6,544 bases of DNA from Spirochaetaceae bacterium (GTDB taxonomy: Bacteria > Spirochaetota > Spirochaetia > Treponematales > Treponemataceae), in NCBI GenBank assembly GCA_031285525.1, contig JAITWB010000246.1, positions 1 to 6,544 of the forward strand. Reading direction: 5' to 3'. Shown one piece after another: positions 886-6,229 of this stretch. Within the stretch, counting starts at the first letter, position 1, and each line of letters begins with the position of its first letter. The notes under the pieces were generated by a model that saw only the letters and a list, made by a program, of their open reading frames with translations, did no database searches and was not told the DNA's origin. The translations under genes and the position numbers were made by a program.

Positions 886-1100
886 TCCCCGGTTTTTTGG
901 GGAGTTCCCCCAATGTTAGATTAGGTTCCCCCGGTCTTCGGGGGAGTTCCCCCGATGTCAGATTGAGCTCCCCCGGCTTGTGGGGGACTTCCCCCAATGT
1001 CAGATTAAGCTCCCCCAGTCTTTGGGGGAGTTCCCCCGATGTTAGATTGGGTTCCCCCGGTCTTCGGGGGAGTTCCCCCGATGTTAGATTAAGCTCCCCC
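886..1100. repeat. five tandem 42-bp C5/G5 palindromic repeats plus a partial sixth
   Basis: Units start at 886, 927, 969, 1011 and 1053; a partial copy (TCCCCC) starts at 1095. The consensus on + is T-CCCCC-7 bases-GGGGG-AGTT-CCCCC followed by RATGTYAGATTRRGY. The period is 42 bp (41 in unit 1). Each G5 block can pair with the C5 on its left (loop of about 7) or with the C5 on its right (loop of 4, AGTT or ACTT). The bases next to the G5 vary between copies so that both alternatives keep G-C, A-T or G-T pairs. Because 42 is divisible by three, the array is open in frames on both strands and gives artefactual 14-residue repeat ORFs. It is not CRISPR: there are no unique spacers. The last full unit also supplies the stop codon and last residue of the helD-like gene. 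Confidence 0.9.
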
Positions 1101-3233
1101 AGTGCTGGATAACACATAACCTGCCCCCCGAAAAGGAACATTTTTGCTGTCTTTCAAGGCAAAACCGAGCAAGGGCGATACTTCTTCTGTATACAAAAGC
1201 GTTAGCTTGTGCATTGCCCGTGTACAGGCGATATAGAGCAGGTTTCTATCGTATTCCGATTCATAGATATTCTTGTTCACATTGGGAAGTATAACTTCAT
1301 CAAATTCCAGCCCCTTGGAGGCCTGAATAGAAGTGATGGATATACCGTTTGCAAAACGGGTGCTCAATGATGAAATCAGATGCACATCATAGTCATTCGA
1401 AAGCTGATTAAAGAGAGCTTGGGCGTCATTGTTCGTTTTCAGAATGATAGCGAGGGATGTATAGCCGCTTTGTAAGAAGACATCGATTTCGGATGTTAAT
1501 TTGGATAACTGCCCTTCTGCATCGCCGCACGGTAAGATTGCAGGGGGCGTACCGTGCCGTTCCATGGGTTCCAGTTTATGTATGTTCCCTATCTTTTTCG
1601 CAAAAGTGATGATCTCATAAGTTGAACGGTAGCTTTTTGTCAGTTCAAACAGTTCCGCTTTTGGATATATCTCCAGTATATCCGCAATCGTATTGAGGTG
1701 GTTCGGATTCACCAGTTGACCGAAATCCCCCAAAATGGTCATGGGGCAGCGGAACAGCTGTTTTATAACGGCGTATTTTATGGGAGTATAATCCTGCATT
1801 TCATCGATGACCAGGTGCTTTATGGTATCACCTGTACGGAAGCCCTCAAATGCTCCATGGATATATAAAAAGGGGAATACATCGGACCATTCCAGAGTCT
1901 TTTTGGCAGGAGGTATATACATATGAGCTCTGTCCATTTGCCTAAAGAAGTCCGTATATAAGAAAAGGCTATCCTGTACGGTAAGCATTTTGTTCAGGCT
2001 TTTCAGTATTACCGGCGCCGACGGTATTACTCCCGGCGTGGGATCGCCCGATTCTTTGAATGCCTCAAAGCGTTCATGTATATCTTCCGCTATTCTGCGG
2101 AGCCGCTGTTTAACCGGAAGGTCTGTATAGGTATTGTACCTGCGCCGTATCCATTCTGCGCTGACGGTAAAGCTGCGGTGGATATACTCTTTGGGTTCAA
2201 AAACGCTCTCAGTCATCCGTTCGATATAATAGTCGAGCAGTTTGAGGAATATAAGAGTGGATTTAAAACGAACCCGTGCGCCCCAGTGAGGATCGTGCGC
2301 TTCCTGGGGGTTCTTGTCTGTTTCAAAAGCAATAATACCGTTCAATTGCTGTCCGGCGATGTCAGCAAAAGTGGATTGGTTTATCCGTTCCTCTCCCAAT
2401 TCGGGCAGAACATTGGAAATATAATCGCCAAAGACTTTGTTGGGAGAAATAATGGTTATGTCCCGTGAGGTGAGGGTCTTTTTGAAACGGTACAGTAGAA
2501 AGGCGATCCGGTGCAGTGCGATGGATGTTTTTCCCGAACCGGCAACTCCCTGAATAATCAGTATTTCCGCCCCTTCGTTTCTGATGATCCGGTTTTGTTC
2601 CTTCTGGATGGTTGCGATGATGGACTTCATTTTACTGTCCGAAGTCTGGCTTAACTCCCGCTGCAACACATCATCCTGAATATTCAGGGAGCTTTCCAGA
2701 ACATAGAGCAGTTTTCTGTTTTTTATTTTGAATTGCCGCTTGCGGGACAGCTCGCCTTCTACCCGCTTTTGCGGCGCATCGTATCCGGCGGACCCCAGTT
2801 CATAATCGTAGAACATACTCGCAAAGGGGGCGCGCCAGTCGATGACCAGCAGTTCGTTTCCGTACATGAACGAAGCGGCTCCGATATAGCGGGTGACGGC
2901 GGGGCTCTCTTTTTCCTGAAAATCAATACGGGCAAAGTAGGGGGACTGCACCAATTGAGCTGTCAGGTTCCGCATTTTCACGAAAAATGCCCCTGAACGG
3001 TCAACCTGGTTTAGTAATAATTGGTTTTGAAAGCCTTCGTGGGGATCGCTGGTATGTTCCATCGTGTAACGTTTGAAGTCCATATAGTCGGTATCTATCT
3101 GTTTAATCCCGGCATCTGATTCCCTGAGTGTATCGTCAATCTTGGCATTGATCTCCTCAAGATGGGCAATTTCATCCGGGAATTGAATAGTTGTATCTGT
3201 ATTCACTGTATTGTTGTCTGTATATTGAGTCAT
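1089..3233 (-). CDS. helD: HelD-like superfamily 1 ATPase/helicase (RNA polymerase recycling factor)
   Basis: A 714-residue UvrD/Rep-superfamily protein. Residues about 15-100 form the charged, coiled-coil-like N-terminal arm of HelD; IDWRAPFAS (131-139) is typical of the family. Then come EQNRIIRN (212-219), Walker A GVAGSGKT (229-236), a HelD-specific insert, Walker B VIDEMQD (475-481), GDFGQ (502-506), SYRST (534-538), KGLEFDEV (640-647) and LLYIACTRA (665-673). All helicase motifs are present, so it should be an active ATPase. In Bacillus, HelD enters the RNA polymerase secondary channel and removes stalled polymerase from DNA; that role is inferred here. The start is ATG at 3231-3233 with AAGGAG seven bases upstream; the frame extends to TTG 3266 but without such support. 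The C-terminus (GYVLSSTGGA) runs into the repeat array, and TAA lies inside the last full unit, so the native end may have been altered. It is divergent from vapBC. E. coli-type DNA helicase IV is a less likely label. Confidence 0.9.
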   Translation of the reverse strand: MTQYTDNNTVNTDTTIQFPDEIAHLEEINAKIDDTLRESDAGIKQIDTDYMDFKRYTMEHTSDPHEGFQNQLLLNQVDRSGAFFVKMRNLTAQLVQSPYFARIDFQEKESPAVTRYIGAASFMYGNELLVIDWRAPFASMFYDYELGSAGYDAPQKRVEGELSRKRQFKIKNRKLLYVLESSLNIQDDVLQRELSQTSDSKMKSIIATIQKEQNRIIRNEGAEILIIQGVAGSGKTSIALHRIAFLLYRFKKTLTSRDITIISPNKVFGDYISNVLPELGEERINQSTFADIAGQQLNGIIAFETDKNPQEAHDPHWGARVRFKSTLIFLKLLDYYIERMTESVFEPKEYIHRSFTVSAEWIRRRYNTYTDLPVKQRLRRIAEDIHERFEAFKESGDPTPGVIPSAPVILKSLNKMLTVQDSLFLYTDFFRQMDRAHMYIPPAKKTLEWSDVFPFLYIHGAFEGFRTGDTIKHLVIDEMQDYTPIKYAVIKQLFRCPMTILGDFGQLVNPNHLNTIADILEIYPKAELFELTKSYRSTYEIITFAKKIGNIHKLEPMERHGTPPAILPCGDAEGQLSKLTSEIDVFLQSGYTSLAIILKTNNDAQALFNQLSNDYDVHLISSLSTRFANGISITSIQASKGLEFDEVILPNVNKNIYESEYDRNLLYIACTRAMHKLTLLYTEEVSPLLGFALKDSKNVPFRGAGYVLSSTGGA

Positions 3234-3240
3234 CGGTAGT

Positions 3241-3246
3241 CTCCTT
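3241..3246 (-). promoter_or_regulatory. ribosome binding site of the helD-like gene
   Basis: On the - strand AAGGAG lies seven bases before ATG 3233. It decides the start in favour of this ATG rather than the upstream in-frame TTG at 3266. Confidence 0.75.
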
Positions 3247-3346
3247 GTGAAGCAAGAGTATAGCAAAAATGCTCACAGTGTTTTTAATGAATATTGCTGT
3301 TTTTTGAAATACGAGAAAACGCTCTTCTAAATTATAATGAGTTTAA

Positions 3347-3394: not shown

Positions 3395-3589
3395 ATGAGA
3401 ACCACCCTTGATCTAAATGAAACCCTTCTGAAAGAAGCTATGAGATGGATTGGAGCGGAGACAAAAACCGCAGTCATCAATGAAGCATTGAATCAGCTCA
3501 TACGTATGAAAAAGAGAATGAAACTGATTGAAATGGCAGGAAAAGTAGCGCTGGACGTTGATCTCGATGCTACCCGGAACAGAATATGA
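3395..3589 (+). CDS. vapB: VapB-type antitoxin (type II toxin-antitoxin)
   Basis: A 64-residue protein. Its N-terminus MRTTLDLNETLLKEAMRW matches the ribbon-helix-helix DNA-binding part of the VapB family that usually begins MRTTL-(N/D)-(I/L)-(D/N). TKTAVINEALNQLIR (about residues 23-37) is the second helix region with its typical TKT...NEAL pattern. The basic stretch and the GKVALDVDLDATR tail correspond to the toxin-binding end, where family members often have G-x-(V/I)-x-W/L-x-x-D-L. The length is normal for the family. AAGGAGG (3384-3390) stands four bases before ATG. The last codons overlap vapC by four bases (ATGA), typical of coupled synthesis of the pair. The protein should neutralise VapC and, with it, repress the promoter through the TATGCATAA sites upstream. 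It is a confident family call, and the pair looks intact. Confidence 0.9.
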   Translation: MRTTLDLNETLLKEAMRWIGAETKTAVINEALNQLIRMKKRMKLIEMAGKVALDVDLDATRNRI

Positions 3590-3969
3590 AATATATCGTT
3601 GATAGTTGTGTCTGGATAGACTTTTTCGCAGAGAAAAGACACTTGGAAACACTGTCGGCGCTCTTGATGGACGATCTGGTTTATACCAACAAGGCGATCT
3701 TGGCTGAATTGCTCCCCTCCGCTCGAATGAAGAAAGAATATGAACTGGTAGAATGCCTTTCTGGAGTGAATGAACTACCGCTTTCTATCGACTGGGATGA
3801 GATAGCCGAAATCCAGTATAAATGCTTAAAAGCAGGGGTGAATAAAATCGGTCTTGTGGATATTATCATTGCCCAAAATGCCGCTCAGTATAATATGACC
3901 GTGTTTTCTACAGACAGGCATATGGAATTGCTTTCCCCTATTATTGGTGTTGAACATAGGAAGGAGTAA
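3586..3969 (+). CDS. vapC: VapC-type PIN-domain ribonuclease toxin
   Basis: A 127-residue PIN-domain protein, the usual VapC size. It begins MKYIVDSCVWIDFF, with the first acidic active-site residue at D6. The other expected metal ligands are visible: E41 (AILAELL), D92 (GLVDIII) and D110 (FSTDRHM). All four are present, so the nuclease should be active. VapC toxins cut specific RNAs, often initiator tRNA or the rRNA sarcin-ricin loop; the target here cannot be told from sequence. The start overlaps the vapB stop (ATGA at 3586-3589), giving the standard antitoxin-toxin order. The stop TAA (3967-3969) is only eight bases from the next start, and the last vapC codons form part of the ribosome binding site of the kinase gene, which suggests that the toxin-antitoxin transcript continues into it. 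Confidence 0.92.
   Translation: MKYIVDSCVWIDFFAEKRHLETLSALLMDDLVYTNKAILAELLPSARMKKEYELVECLSGVNELPLSIDWDEIAEIQYKCLKAGVNKIGLVDIIIAQNAAQYNMTVFSTDRHMELLSPIIGVEHRKE
3961..3966 (+). promoter_or_regulatory. ribosome binding site of the UbiB-like gene inside the vapC end
   Basis: AAGGAG forms the last two sense codons of vapC and stands 11 bases before ATG 3978. The spacing is somewhat long. Its position suggests coupling of translation between vapC and the kinase gene. Confidence 0.55.
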
Positions 3970-3977
3970 AGACCTCT

Positions 3978-5813
3978 ATGGGTTCCAGAAAAAAGAAAGG
4001 TTTCATAGATACAAGTGTCCGCATTGAGAGGATTCGAGGTTCACATGGCTCCTCCTCGAAAGATGCCCGCTATTCCACCGCCCGTACCTATCCTGCCCGG
4101 TATCGGCAGATATTGACGATCCTTGCGTCCTACGGGTTCCGGGATATTGTCCGCAAGATAATCGCTTCTTTTCCATTCCCATTGCAGGAAAAGGCTAAAA
4201 TCCGAATCGCTGCGGAAAAATCATCCATGGGCGAGCAGATTCGGCTCATCGATATCGGTAAGAACCGCATCAATTACGAACAGATACGGCTGATGCTTGA
4301 GGCGCTGGGGCCAACCTTTGTTAAACTGGGACAGTTTCTCAGCAGCCGCCCGGATATCATCGATCCGGCGCTGGCAAAGGAGTTGGAGAAGCTTCAGGAC
4401 GGGGTGCCCCCTTTTTCAGGAGAGGATGCGGAACTGATAATCCAGGAAGAGCTGGGAAAACCGGTGCGGCGGCTCTTTGCTTCCTTTGACAGAACCCCAA
4501 TAGCTTCCGCATCGATAGCGCAGGTACACAAGGCGGTGCTGTTTAACGGCACTGCGGTTGCCGTCAAGGTGCAGCGTCCGGATATACAGAAAACGGTTGA
4601 ACTGGATGTGCAAATACTCAAAGACCTGGCAGGCTTTGCGGAACGGCATATCAAGTTTCTCTCCTGGTTTCAGCCTGTTTCGCTGATCGATACCTTCTGT
4701 GAGGGACTGCTCTGCGAGCTCGATTTTCTGCATGAGATGGAAAATATCAGCCGTTTTACGGATGCCTACTCGGCGACGCCCCATCTGGTGGTTCCCCGGT
4801 ATTACGAACAGCTATCGACCAGACGGGTTTTCTGCATGGAGTTCGTCTTTGGAACGAAAATTTCAGAACTGGGCGCTAAAAAACGGCTCAAGGCAGGAAA
4901 CTCGAAGGCTGCGGAATATAAACCCCGGCTTATTGCGGATCGGTTCGTCACACTGGTGCTGAAGCAGATATTTACCGGCGGGTATTTCCACGGCGATCCC
5001 CATCCGGGGAATATCCTGGTTACCGGGGACAACGATATCTGTTTCATCGATTTCGGCCTGATGGGGACAATTACAGAACGTCAGAAGGAATATCTGACCC
5101 GAATGCTCATCGCCATCCCTTCCCGAAATATGGAGCGATTTACCCGCTCCCTGCTGGGACTCCTCGGTGTCGGAAGGATGGACAAATTCGAAGCTCTAAA
5201 GGAAGAGTGCAGTCTGCTGCTGGAAAAGTATGTGAACAGCACTCTGGCGAATATGGAGATATCGAAACTGATACAGGATATGATTCAGATCATCACCTCC
5301 TTTCGTCTCATGGTTCCCCCTTCGATAACCATGCTTGGCAAGGCGATGGCCTATGTCGAAACCGTCGCCTATCAGCTCGATCCGACCCTGAACATCCTGG
5401 ACAAACTGCTCCCTTTCATCAAAAAACTCACCCTGCAGCGGCTTTCCCCGGTGAGAACCGCCGAGCGAGTGTTCTCTTCTTCCCTGTCCTATGCGGAACT
5501 GCTGGAAAATCTGCCCGATACTATCCAGGAATTCTACTCCATGGTGAGTTCGGGCAACCTGCGCCTCCAGATGGATATCGCCTCCCCCAGGGGGATCGAA
5601 ACGCTGAACAATATTGCCAACAGAGTCGTTTTCGGGCTGGTATTGGCGGCGCTGATCATCAGTTCTTCGGTTATAGTGTTTGCCAAGATTCCGCCCCTCT
5701 GGTGGGATATATCGATTATCGGGATAGGGGGCTTTCTGCTTTCCGGGCTATTGGGATTCGGGTTTGTGATAGAACAGCTCATTCGGTCCTTTCGGCGGCA
5801 TCGGGGGCGATAG
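3978..5813 (+). CDS. ubiB: UbiB/ABC1/ADCK-family atypical kinase, membrane-anchored
   Basis: A 611-residue protein with all the family hallmarks: the inhibitory KxGQ motif (KLGQ, 116-119), the alanine-rich nucleotide loop ASASIAQVH (176-184), the lysine K197 in VAVKVQRP, the ExD pair E247/D249, the catalytic HGDPHPGN (338-345) and DFG (358-360). Two hydrophobic helices close the protein (about 549-571 and 577-599), followed by a basic tail. This is the usual bacterial UbiB arrangement, so the kinase domain should sit on the cytoplasmic face of the inner membrane. UbiB proteins bind ATP and support ubiquinone or other isoprenoid-lipid metabolism, probably as ATPases handling lipid intermediates. 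No quinone gene lies nearby, and if the host is an anaerobic treponeme a ubiquinone role is doubtful, so the symbol marks the family only. The N-terminal 40 residues are basic and poorly conserved. The start is ATG 3978. It probably shares transcripts with vapBC. Confidence 0.9.
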   Translation: MGSRKKKGFIDTSVRIERIRGSHGSSSKDARYSTARTYPARYRQILTILASYGFRDIVRKIIASFPFPLQEKAKIRIAAEKSSMGEQIRLIDIGKNRINYEQIRLMLEALGPTFVKLGQFLSSRPDIIDPALAKELEKLQDGVPPFSGEDAELIIQEELGKPVRRLFASFDRTPIASASIAQVHKAVLFNGTAVAVKVQRPDIQKTVELDVQILKDLAGFAERHIKFLSWFQPVSLIDTFCEGLLCELDFLHEMENISRFTDAYSATPHLVVPRYYEQLSTRRVFCMEFVFGTKISELGAKKRLKAGNSKAAEYKPRLIADRFVTLVLKQIFTGGYFHGDPHPGNILVTGDNDICFIDFGLMGTITERQKEYLTRMLIAIPSRNMERFTRSLLGLLGVGRMDKFEALKEECSLLLEKYVNSTLANMEISKLIQDMIQIITSFRLMVPPSITMLGKAMAYVETVAYQLDPTLNILDKLLPFIKKLTLQRLSPVRTAERVFSSSLSYAELLENLPDTIQEFYSMVSSGNLRLQMDIASPRGIETLNNIANRVVFGLVLAALIISSSVIVFAKIPPLWWDISIIGIGGFLLSGLLGFGFVIEQLIRSFRRHRGR

Positions 5814-5845: not shown

Positions 5846-5883
5846 TGTAACTTTTTTCGGTTCCCGGGGTTTGTTTTGTAGAT
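5846..5883 (+). promoter_or_regulatory. promoter region of first sRNA-like unit
   Basis: The blocks TGTAACTT (5846-5853), GGTTTGTTT (5868-5876) and AGAT (5880-5883) recur at 6010, 6032 and 6044 with exactly the same spacing (N14 and N3). GTAGAT at 5878-5883 would serve as the -10 box; the -35 hexamer (TTTCGG, 5855-5860) is poor, so the conserved TGTAACTT block may be an activator or alternative recognition element. The case rests on conservation between the two copies. Confidence 0.5.
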
Positions 5884-5889
5884 TGCAAG

Positions 5890-5990
5890 AGCAACAATCA
5901 CCGCAGACAGAAAATAATCTTTTTCAGCTCTGTATCCTCCTCTCCTTTTGAATCGGCTTTGCGGAGTTTCCGCCAAGCCGATTCTTTTTT
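5890..5990 (+). ncRNA. candidate small RNA 1 (about 100 nt, C/U-rich anti-Shine-Dalgarno segment)
   Basis: The predicted RNA runs from about 5890 (seven bases after the -10 box) to the T-run of the terminator at 5990. AGAGC (5888-5892) can pair with GCTCT (5927-5931), enclosing an A-rich stretch. Then comes the unpaired-looking TCCTCCTCTCCTT (5935-5947), complementary to AGGAGG-type ribosome binding sites, and then the terminator. A second copy of the whole design lies at 6054-6152. I do not recognise a known RNA family. No plausible ORF with a ribosome binding site fits here. The alternative is a duplicated terminator with a conserved upstream tract, but the matching promoter blocks favour a transcribed unit. 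Confidence 0.55.
5950..5990 (+). terminator. strong intrinsic terminator of first sRNA-like unit
   Basis: GAATCGGCTT (5950-5959) pairs with AAGCCGATTC (5975-5984). Inside, after one mismatch, GCGG (5961-5964) pairs with CCGC (5970-5973) around AGTTT. TTTTTT (5985-5990) follows. It would also stop read-through from the vapBC-ubiB transcript. Confidence 0.88.
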
Positions 5991-6009
5991 GTATTTTTTG
6001 GTCTTTTCT

Positions 6010-6047
6010 TGTAACTTCTTGCTTTTATGATGGTTTGTTTATTAGAT
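6010..6047 (+). promoter_or_regulatory. promoter region of second sRNA-like unit
   Basis: This is the copy of the 5846-5883 region: TGTAACTT (6010-6017), GGTTTGTTT (6032-6040) and AGAT (6044-6047) at the same spacing. Here a fair sigma-70-like promoter is visible: TTGCTT (6019-6024), 17 bases, TTAGAT (6042-6047). Predicted start near 6054. Confidence 0.55.
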
Positions 6048-6053
6048 CGGGTG

Positions 6054-6152
6054 AATAGAATTGCCATTGATAGAAAGCCGATTTTCGGATATGTGTCCTC
6101 CTCTCCTTATTTAGCCGTCCCTGCGGAGTTTCCGTAGGGACGGTTCTTTTTT
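6054..6152 (+). ncRNA. candidate small RNA 2, paralogue of the first
   Basis: The predicted RNA of about 99 nt carries a small 5' hairpin (CCGA 6078-6081, TTT, TCGG 6085-6088), then TCCTCCTCTCCTT (6096-6108), identical to that of copy 1, then a terminator with the same tip. The 5' halves of the two RNAs differ while the promoter blocks, the C/U tract and the terminator tip are kept, which is what one expects of duplicated regulatory RNAs that share a seed. AAAGCCGATT (6074-6083) is exactly complementary to AATCGGCTTT (5951-5960) in unit 1. The function is unknown; translation control through Shine-Dalgarno pairing is inferred. Confidence 0.55.
6113..6152 (+). terminator. strong intrinsic terminator of second sRNA-like unit
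   Basis: CCGTCCCTGCGG (6115-6126) pairs with CCGTAGGGACGG (6132-6143), one G-T pair, around AGTTT. A-T and G-T pairs can extend the base to 6113/6145, and TTTTTT follows (6147-6152). The tip GCGGAGTTTCCG equals that of the terminator at 5950-5990, while the lower stem has a different sequence that is still paired. Confidence 0.88.
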
Positions 6153-6159
6153 ACTGAGC

Positions 6160-6200
6160 GATTGTTGACAATCAAAGATTATCGGCAATCGGAGATTGTC
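6160..6200. repeat. cluster of GATTGT/ACAATC inverted repeats upstream of thrC
   Basis: GATTGT (6160-6165) and ACAATC (6168-6173) form a palindrome with a two-base centre. GACAATC (6167-6173) also pairs with GATTGTC (6194-6200), and inside it GATT (6177-6180) pairs with AATC (6187-6190). The arms can thus pair in two ways. It could be an operator or a leader structure for thrC. The contained TTGACA (6165-6170) has no convincing -10 box at the right distance. Confidence 0.45.
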
Positions 6201-6229
6201 TAAAAAATAGTTTTCCATTACAATAAACT

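Follow-up and report, generated by a model that had tools for sequence, protein, structure and literature searches.

Two predicted small-RNA units between ubiB and thrC and the apparently undescribed RNA family of Treponema-type spirochaetes to which they belong, with an ECF-type promoter and an anti-SD strip

The gap between ubiB and thrC in a Spirochaetaceae genome is taken up by two predicted small-RNA units, both on the + strand, which raises the question of what these units are, what transcribes them and what their products might do. The window, i.e. the whole stretch of 6,544 nucleotides analysed here, had been described in a sequence-only reading as containing two similar units with common control elements, and this observation is confirmed: each unit consists of TGTAAC-N17-GTTTG, a middle part, the 13-mer TCCTCCTCTCCTT, and a hairpin followed by a run of T. 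The block TGTAACTT-N14-GGTTTGTTT-N3-AGAT occurs exactly at 5846-5883 and 6010-6047 (offset 164), the TCCTCCTCTCCTT strips lie at 5935-5947 and 6096-6108 (offset 161), and the terminator tips GCGGAGTTTCCG, identical in both units as had been claimed, at 5961-5972 and 6123-6134 (offset 162); block, strip and tip are thus all found at the spacing reported, with offsets of 161-164. The promoter-like block, searched with a gap of 10-18 nt, occurs twice in the window and in none of 200 dinucleotide shuffles, and the paired blocks are not due to chance. The features of the locus are listed below, R1 being a covariance model built from 24 member RNAs, each starting after the promoter.

3978-5813: ubiB, ABC1 domain by profile search
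5846-5873, + strand: ECF-type promoter of unit 1, TGTAAC (-35)-N17-GTTTG (-10), from motif, shuffles and relatives
5879-5990, + strand: predicted small RNA of unit 1, about 112 nt, start inferred, from R1 match and fold
5881-5899, + strand: P1 of unit 1, GAUUG/CAAUC around the conserved UGCAAGAGCAA, in the minimum-energy fold (the centroid differs here)
5903-5933, + strand: P2 of unit 1, variable hairpin closed by GCAG/CUG(U), in the predicted fold
5934-5949, + strand: anti-SD strip of unit 1, AUCCUCCUCUCCUUUU, single-stranded in the predicted fold
5950-5990, + strand: intrinsic terminator of unit 1, from fold and covariation
6010-6037, + strand: ECF-type promoter of unit 2, from motif and shuffles
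6043-6152, + strand: predicted small RNA of unit 2, a diverged paralogue with a start placed in the same way, from R1 match and fold
6096-6108, + strand: anti-SD strip of unit 2, from sequence
6113-6152, + strand: intrinsic terminator of unit 2, from terminator scan and fold
From 6282: thrC, Thr_synth_N by profile search

Unit 1, which is part of the training set, matches R1 with 84.2 bits (E 6.5e-18), while unit 2, which is not, matches over 6067-6151 with 37.6 bits (E 1.8e-7 for the window); the fold z-scores are -5.1 and -3.5, respectively. Both terminators are long stems followed by T runs, with one mismatch in unit 1 and 14 unbroken pairs in unit 2, and a simple terminator scan reported the latter only. 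The starts had been placed near 5890 and 6054; because the promoter is of the ECF type, they are expected at about 5879 and 6043 instead. The remark that the lower stems differ in sequence yet stay paired holds; that the changes are compensatory cannot be proven from two copies, but is seen in the 24 members, where 12 of the 15 terminator pairs are changed on both sides. The region between promoter and pyrimidine tract has indeed diverged, the 5' domain of unit 2 being different from that of unit 1.

Elsewhere in the window, the - strand gene at 1089-3266 encodes the RNA polymerase recycling motor HelD (NF041464, 503 bits vs a cut-off of 419), and about five 42-bp units (CCCCGGTCTTTGGGGGAGTTCCCCCGATGTTAGATTAAGCTC), with open frames on both strands, are found at 887-1100, at the 3' end of a helicase-like gene of the - strand. 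A VapB/VapC-like type II toxin-antitoxin pair (3395-3969, + strand; PF09957 and PF01850, with a 4-base overlap) lies just before ubiB, where the VapC model NF047959 stays below its cut-off. The stretch at 6159-6224 features imperfect inverted repeats (CGATTGTTGACAATC, GATTATCGGCAATCG) and then TTGTCT-N17-TACAAT, perhaps a thrC promoter with an operator-like stretch.

No Rfam 15 family reaches its gathering cut-off, either in the window (E up to 10) or at 13 related loci (E up to 5), in agreement with the earlier statement that no named family matches; rli61 and DnaX, considered as possible identities, were rejected, being far below the cut-off. No description of the RNA family appeared among the open-access papers listed in text searches. 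R1 matches in 110 of the 274 genomes of the relatives' family, the other 164 giving no match with filters that are strict, and one member found by pattern (in genome G011) was missed by R1. In a draw from the whole phylum, 23 of 296 genomes were matched, namely 22 of the relatives' family and a single further one (G340), the latter weakly (E 0.007). The closest relative, identified through UbiB (76% identity), is the Spirochaetaceae MAG sequence L001, whose genome, G001, contains a single copy that shares 85% identity with unit 1. The two units belong to a widespread and apparently undescribed RNA family of Treponema-type spirochaetes, a label derived from L001 and from the names of sigma-factor homologues (Treponema, Brucepastera, Spirochaetaceae).

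The 13-mer TCCTCCTCTCCTT is found at 110 places in 94 of the 274 family genomes, the reversed control giving 23. Once rows sharing the same 30 nt upstream and 40 nt downstream are merged, these places and the two window sites make up 106 distinct sites, 81 of which have a terminator by rule. Hand curation, by which three sites were dropped by eye (L127, L130, L133) and five were added whose terminator the rule had missed (L128, L144, L198, L213, L223; four of them already known to bear a promoter), resulted in 83 members. R1 matches outside this set number 33, of which 20 were fetched, including that of G027, previously seen with a promoter, and several near-identical relatives; 12 of the remaining 13 are weak (E 1e-4 or more). 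At E 0.01, BLAST analysis of the region gave matches in 37 of 145 family genomes; some (L104, L105) are clearly due to chance, others share the short islands AUUGCAAGAGCAAC..AAUCACCGCAG and CUGCAUCCUCCUCUCCUUU. The promoter-plus-strip pattern was detected in 10 of 392 genomes drawn from the phylum, one of which (G277) lies outside the family, with one match in the reversed control; a variant pattern was detected in 7 of 195 family genomes, all already R1-positive, and never in the controls.

Some sequences depart from the common layout. Three divergent members (L336, L338, L339) keep promoter and terminator and feature the strip AGCUCCUUUA instead; they may represent a sister RNA sharing the sigma factor of the family. 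Other members (L326-L331 and L333) are very short, measuring about 80 nt, and have the strip UUUCUCCUCUCCUUU and almost no 5' domain. At L127 (G026), strip and terminator are found without promoter or 5' domain, likely the remnant of a member's 3' half.

By its sequence, TGTAAC-N17-GTT, the block common to the two units is a promoter of the ECF type. TGTAAC with a GT-containing -10 about 16 nt further on corresponds to ECF promoter geometry (e.g. that of Bacillus SigW/SigX). A sigma70 promoter was considered for the block and rejected, because boxes and spacing do not fit and a sigma70 scan reports no site there. GTAAC-N16-18-GTT lies within 200 nt upstream in 73 of the 83 members (200 dinucleotide shuffles: mean 0.7, maximum 3), counts which are not independent because the members come from related species and some are nearly identical. 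The spacing is 17 in 60 members, 18 in 8 and 16 in 5, and the spacer varies over most of its length, G being somewhat preferred towards the end. Before hand curation, the exact N17 form was present at 56 of 81 terminator-bearing sites vs 4 of 25 without terminator. Among the ten members without the strict promoter, seven fit a loose form and three none, one of these being at a contig end. The promoter also precedes 19 of the 20 further R1 matches fetched, 31-32 nt before the R1 start in 17 and 24 nt in two; R1 itself begins downstream of it. Even where the strip is altered (L335, as well as the three divergent members) the promoter is kept. The proposal of duplicated regulatory RNAs with shared control is supported by this distribution of R1, by the promoters before members and fetched matches alike, and by the lack of any Rfam match above cut-off; the test named in the sequence-only reading as its refutation, promoter blocks lost but terminators retained, did not overturn it. 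Genome-wide, the strict promoter pattern is hardly enriched (82 sites vs 66 for the reversed pattern in 12 genomes), and the regulon is therefore not readable from it.

A more specific link to one sigma factor comes from ten RNA-bearing genomes of relatives, in which the upstream regions of 20 of the 24 above-cut-off ECF matches with frames no longer than 240 aa were inspected. The promoter element is found just before one ECF gene per genome in all ten, and before none of the ten other short ECF genes. The gene upstream of the promoter-bearing ECF gene is cysS in both cases tested by profile; in each of the ten genomes, the product of the gene that follows shows, by eye, an H-C-C stretch (zf-HC2 profile match in one of two tested), and the two genes have the form of an ECF/anti-sigma pair. 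The 3.1 Mb of one genome (G005) contain five sites of the strict motif, including those of the cysS-side ECF gene and of the RNA. The RNAs of the relatives have, as is asked of an ECF-sigma-dependent sRNA, their own promoter of the same form as that of the sigma gene. Since this promoter is common to the RNAs and the cysS-side ECF gene, this sigma factor probably drives transcription of the RNAs as well as of its own gene. The gene order suggests that it is the counterpart of T. pallidum TP0092.

The predicted RNA consists, from 5' to 3', of P1, P2, a linear strip and the terminator, with a length from the presumed start of 78-189 nt (median 135). P1 is formed by GAUUG/CAAUC around UGC-AAGA-GCA, sometimes with an extra inserted hairpin (by eye), and P2 by GCAG/CUGC closing a variable hairpin; the 5' domain is very variable across members. 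In the 24 members, 91.7% of cells are paired vs 70.7% after shuffling, and the covariation score of the whole structure is 0.593 vs 0.225 for shuffles; 0.593 was attained by 0 of 500 shuffles and by no slid version. Double changes are seen in 13 pairs, a figure reached by 18 of 500 shuffles. The covariation comes almost entirely from the terminator, the closing pairs of P2 barely varying. Compared with shuffles, the 5' part has the more stable fold in most members (z below -2 in 55 of 80, median -2.7), and the mean unpaired probability of the strip is 0.94 vs 0.77 with shuffled 5' parts (80 members), and 0.95 for the 11-nt core in unit 1. The reverse complement of the strip CUGCAUCCUCCUCUCCUUU reads AAAGGAG-AGGAGG-AUG-CAG, i.e. 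SD, spacer and start codon, and the AUG complement is kept in 76 of the 83 members; CCUCCU..CUCCUUU resembles the 3' tail of 16S rRNA. The complementarity of the pyrimidine tract to SD and AUG and the ECF type of the promoter are additions to the sequence-only reading.

Upstream neighbours are co-directional in 32 cases and opposed in 47, downstream ones in 35 and 46, respectively; because neighbours differ and lie on either strand, the RNA gene looks stand-alone. The G001 copy is not beside ubiB, but convergent with leuA, on a contig that also bears thrC. The LeuA of G001 (by profile) is one of 36 neighbours that BLAST links into a cluster, and 24 of the 30 cluster neighbours among the matches listed are downstream and convergent, which indicates one ancestral locus. 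Another group is flanked, by eye, by a P-type ATPase gene on one side and FlgN/FlgK-like genes on the other. Among the sites inspected, a close tandem pair is found only in the window; in multi-copy genomes (G002, G021, G038) the copies are kilobases apart or on other contigs.

We consider it probable that the two units encode trans-acting small RNAs of one family, transcribed by an ECF sigma factor and repressing translation without Hfq. Both would be transcribed by one conserved ECF sigma, encoded after cysS, which, with the same promoter before its own gene, would be autoregulated. Each RNA would end in an intrinsic terminator, preceded by a single-stranded strip that stays constant and, further 5', by a structured domain that varies. 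On activation of the sigma factor, the strip would pair with the SD and start-codon regions of chosen mRNAs and block their translation, with no need for Hfq, the family acting as an arm of an ECF response that is noncoding and represses. Tandem duplication of the gene would have given rise to the two copies in the window, unit 1 being canonical and unit 2 diverged. Since the strip is complementary to ribosome binding sites, the RNAs probably turn down the translation of selected messages, and translational repression is their likely action. The Hfq profile (TIGR02383) matches in none of 12 genomes, and in 5 of 14 control genomes.

A search of 12 genomes with the 15-mer complement, allowing up to 2 mismatches, revealed no conserved target with extended complementarity. 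Nine of the listed places were inspected besides the RNA genes: three candidates lie at a possible start codon (L370, L374, L375), none at a start in two genomes; L375 begins, by eye, an exported solute-binding-like protein, and no start was seen in the orthologous pair L371/L372. As nothing conserved emerged, targets may pair through the SD core only. It is conceivable, albeit doubtful, that in these Hfq-less spirochaetes one ECF sigma drives anti-SD-mimic RNAs as a broad translational brake, the strip competing with the ribosome for strong SD-AUG regions and the fast-evolving 5' domain tuning stability or target choice.

Other explanations were weighed against repression in trans. The RNA might be a sponge or titrator of a protein or another RNA, with the CCUCCU strip as a mere binding tract, and both the missing conserved target and the very variable 5' domains would suit this role; an SD-spacer-AUG order in the reverse complement of the strip (AAGGAG AGGAGG AUG) and its predicted single-stranded state argue the opposite, making a sponge unlikely. 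Read on the other strand, the strip is a ribosome binding site, AAAGGAGAGGAGG, with ATG in 76 of 83 members, so that the forward RNA could be the antisense antitoxin of a short hydrophobic peptide, as in type I toxin-antitoxin systems, and by eye a few peptides do appear hydrophobic. However, frames from this ATG range from 1 to 87 codons (the longest running to the limit of the sequence read), a stop follows within 4 codons in 12 of 76, and the window copies have no ATG at that place; such a system was rejected as barely credible, no conserved opposite-strand small ORF or peptide being found across members. A cis-acting leader or attenuator of the next gene, suggested here by a thrC start about 130 bp downstream on the same strand, is very improbable as well: the downstream gene is convergent in 46 of the 81 members with a neighbour, its kind differs, and a weak sigma70-like site (6196-6224; two sites found vs 1.2 expected by chance) precedes thrC. 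With no conserved co-directional downstream gene, this candidate was also rejected.

A further question, compatible with the family explanation, concerns unit 2, which is either a specialised or a decaying copy. That it is a functionless duplicate, only unit 1 being at work, is a serious possibility, to which we give somewhat less than an even chance: its 5' domain sequence is lost, its strip is half paired (mean unpaired probability only 0.47) and the closest relative makes do with a single copy, whereas promoter, 13-nt strip and 14-pair terminator are all kept, and other members with very different 5' parts are promoter-bearing too.

Among known systems, MicA, RybB and MicL are sigmaE-dependent enterobacterial sRNAs, the noncoding arm of the ECF envelope-stress response. 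The RNAs proposed here would share with them this noncoding role in an ECF response; they differ in being Hfq-dependent, with envelope proteins as known targets, and no Rfam family matched the present RNAs above its cut-off. Anti-SD CCUCCUCCC motifs with variable stems are also present in CcsR. Each unit here has its own ECF-type promoter and terminator, unlike the single CcsR/cuckoo precursor. PMC10253847 and PMC3927594 describe CcsR/cuckoo-type RNAs as alphaproteobacterial anti-SD RNAs with an alternative-sigma promoter, arranged, as here, in several copies in a row, SmelA075/099 likewise having anti-SD CCUCCUCCC motifs with variable stems. According to the same papers (PMC10253847, PMC3927594), they differ in their RpoHI/RpoHII promoter, in having a single precursor that is transcribed together with a DUF1127 gene and processed by RNase E, and in the location of CCUCCUCCC within hairpin loops, our strip being predicted as unpaired between P2 and terminator.

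The closest functional precedent, by analogy, seems to be FoxI/FoxJ of Fusobacterium nucleatum, which, according to PMC11005410, are sigmaE-dependent, have a C-rich seed and repress envelope proteins without Hfq. As here, sigmaE promoter boxes are common to rpoE and the sRNAs, the C-rich seed lies, in FoxI, in a linear stretch, and the species is Hfq-less with more than one such RNA per genome; unlike here, fomA and others are known targets and the phylum is a different one, the likeness being drawn from that description (PMC11005410).

Small RNAs of Treponema seem to be little charted, as judged from open-access papers. Across many related genomes, the promoter links this RNA family to one sigma factor, which provides a handle on the regulon of that factor and on the way base-pairing RNAs work in bacteria in which Hfq is not detected. 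In Proteobacteria, noncoding RNAs form the repressing arm of ECF stress responses. Such an arm is reported for Fusobacteria as well (PMC11005410). If the present findings are confirmed, the spirochaetes would be the third phylum in which this holds.
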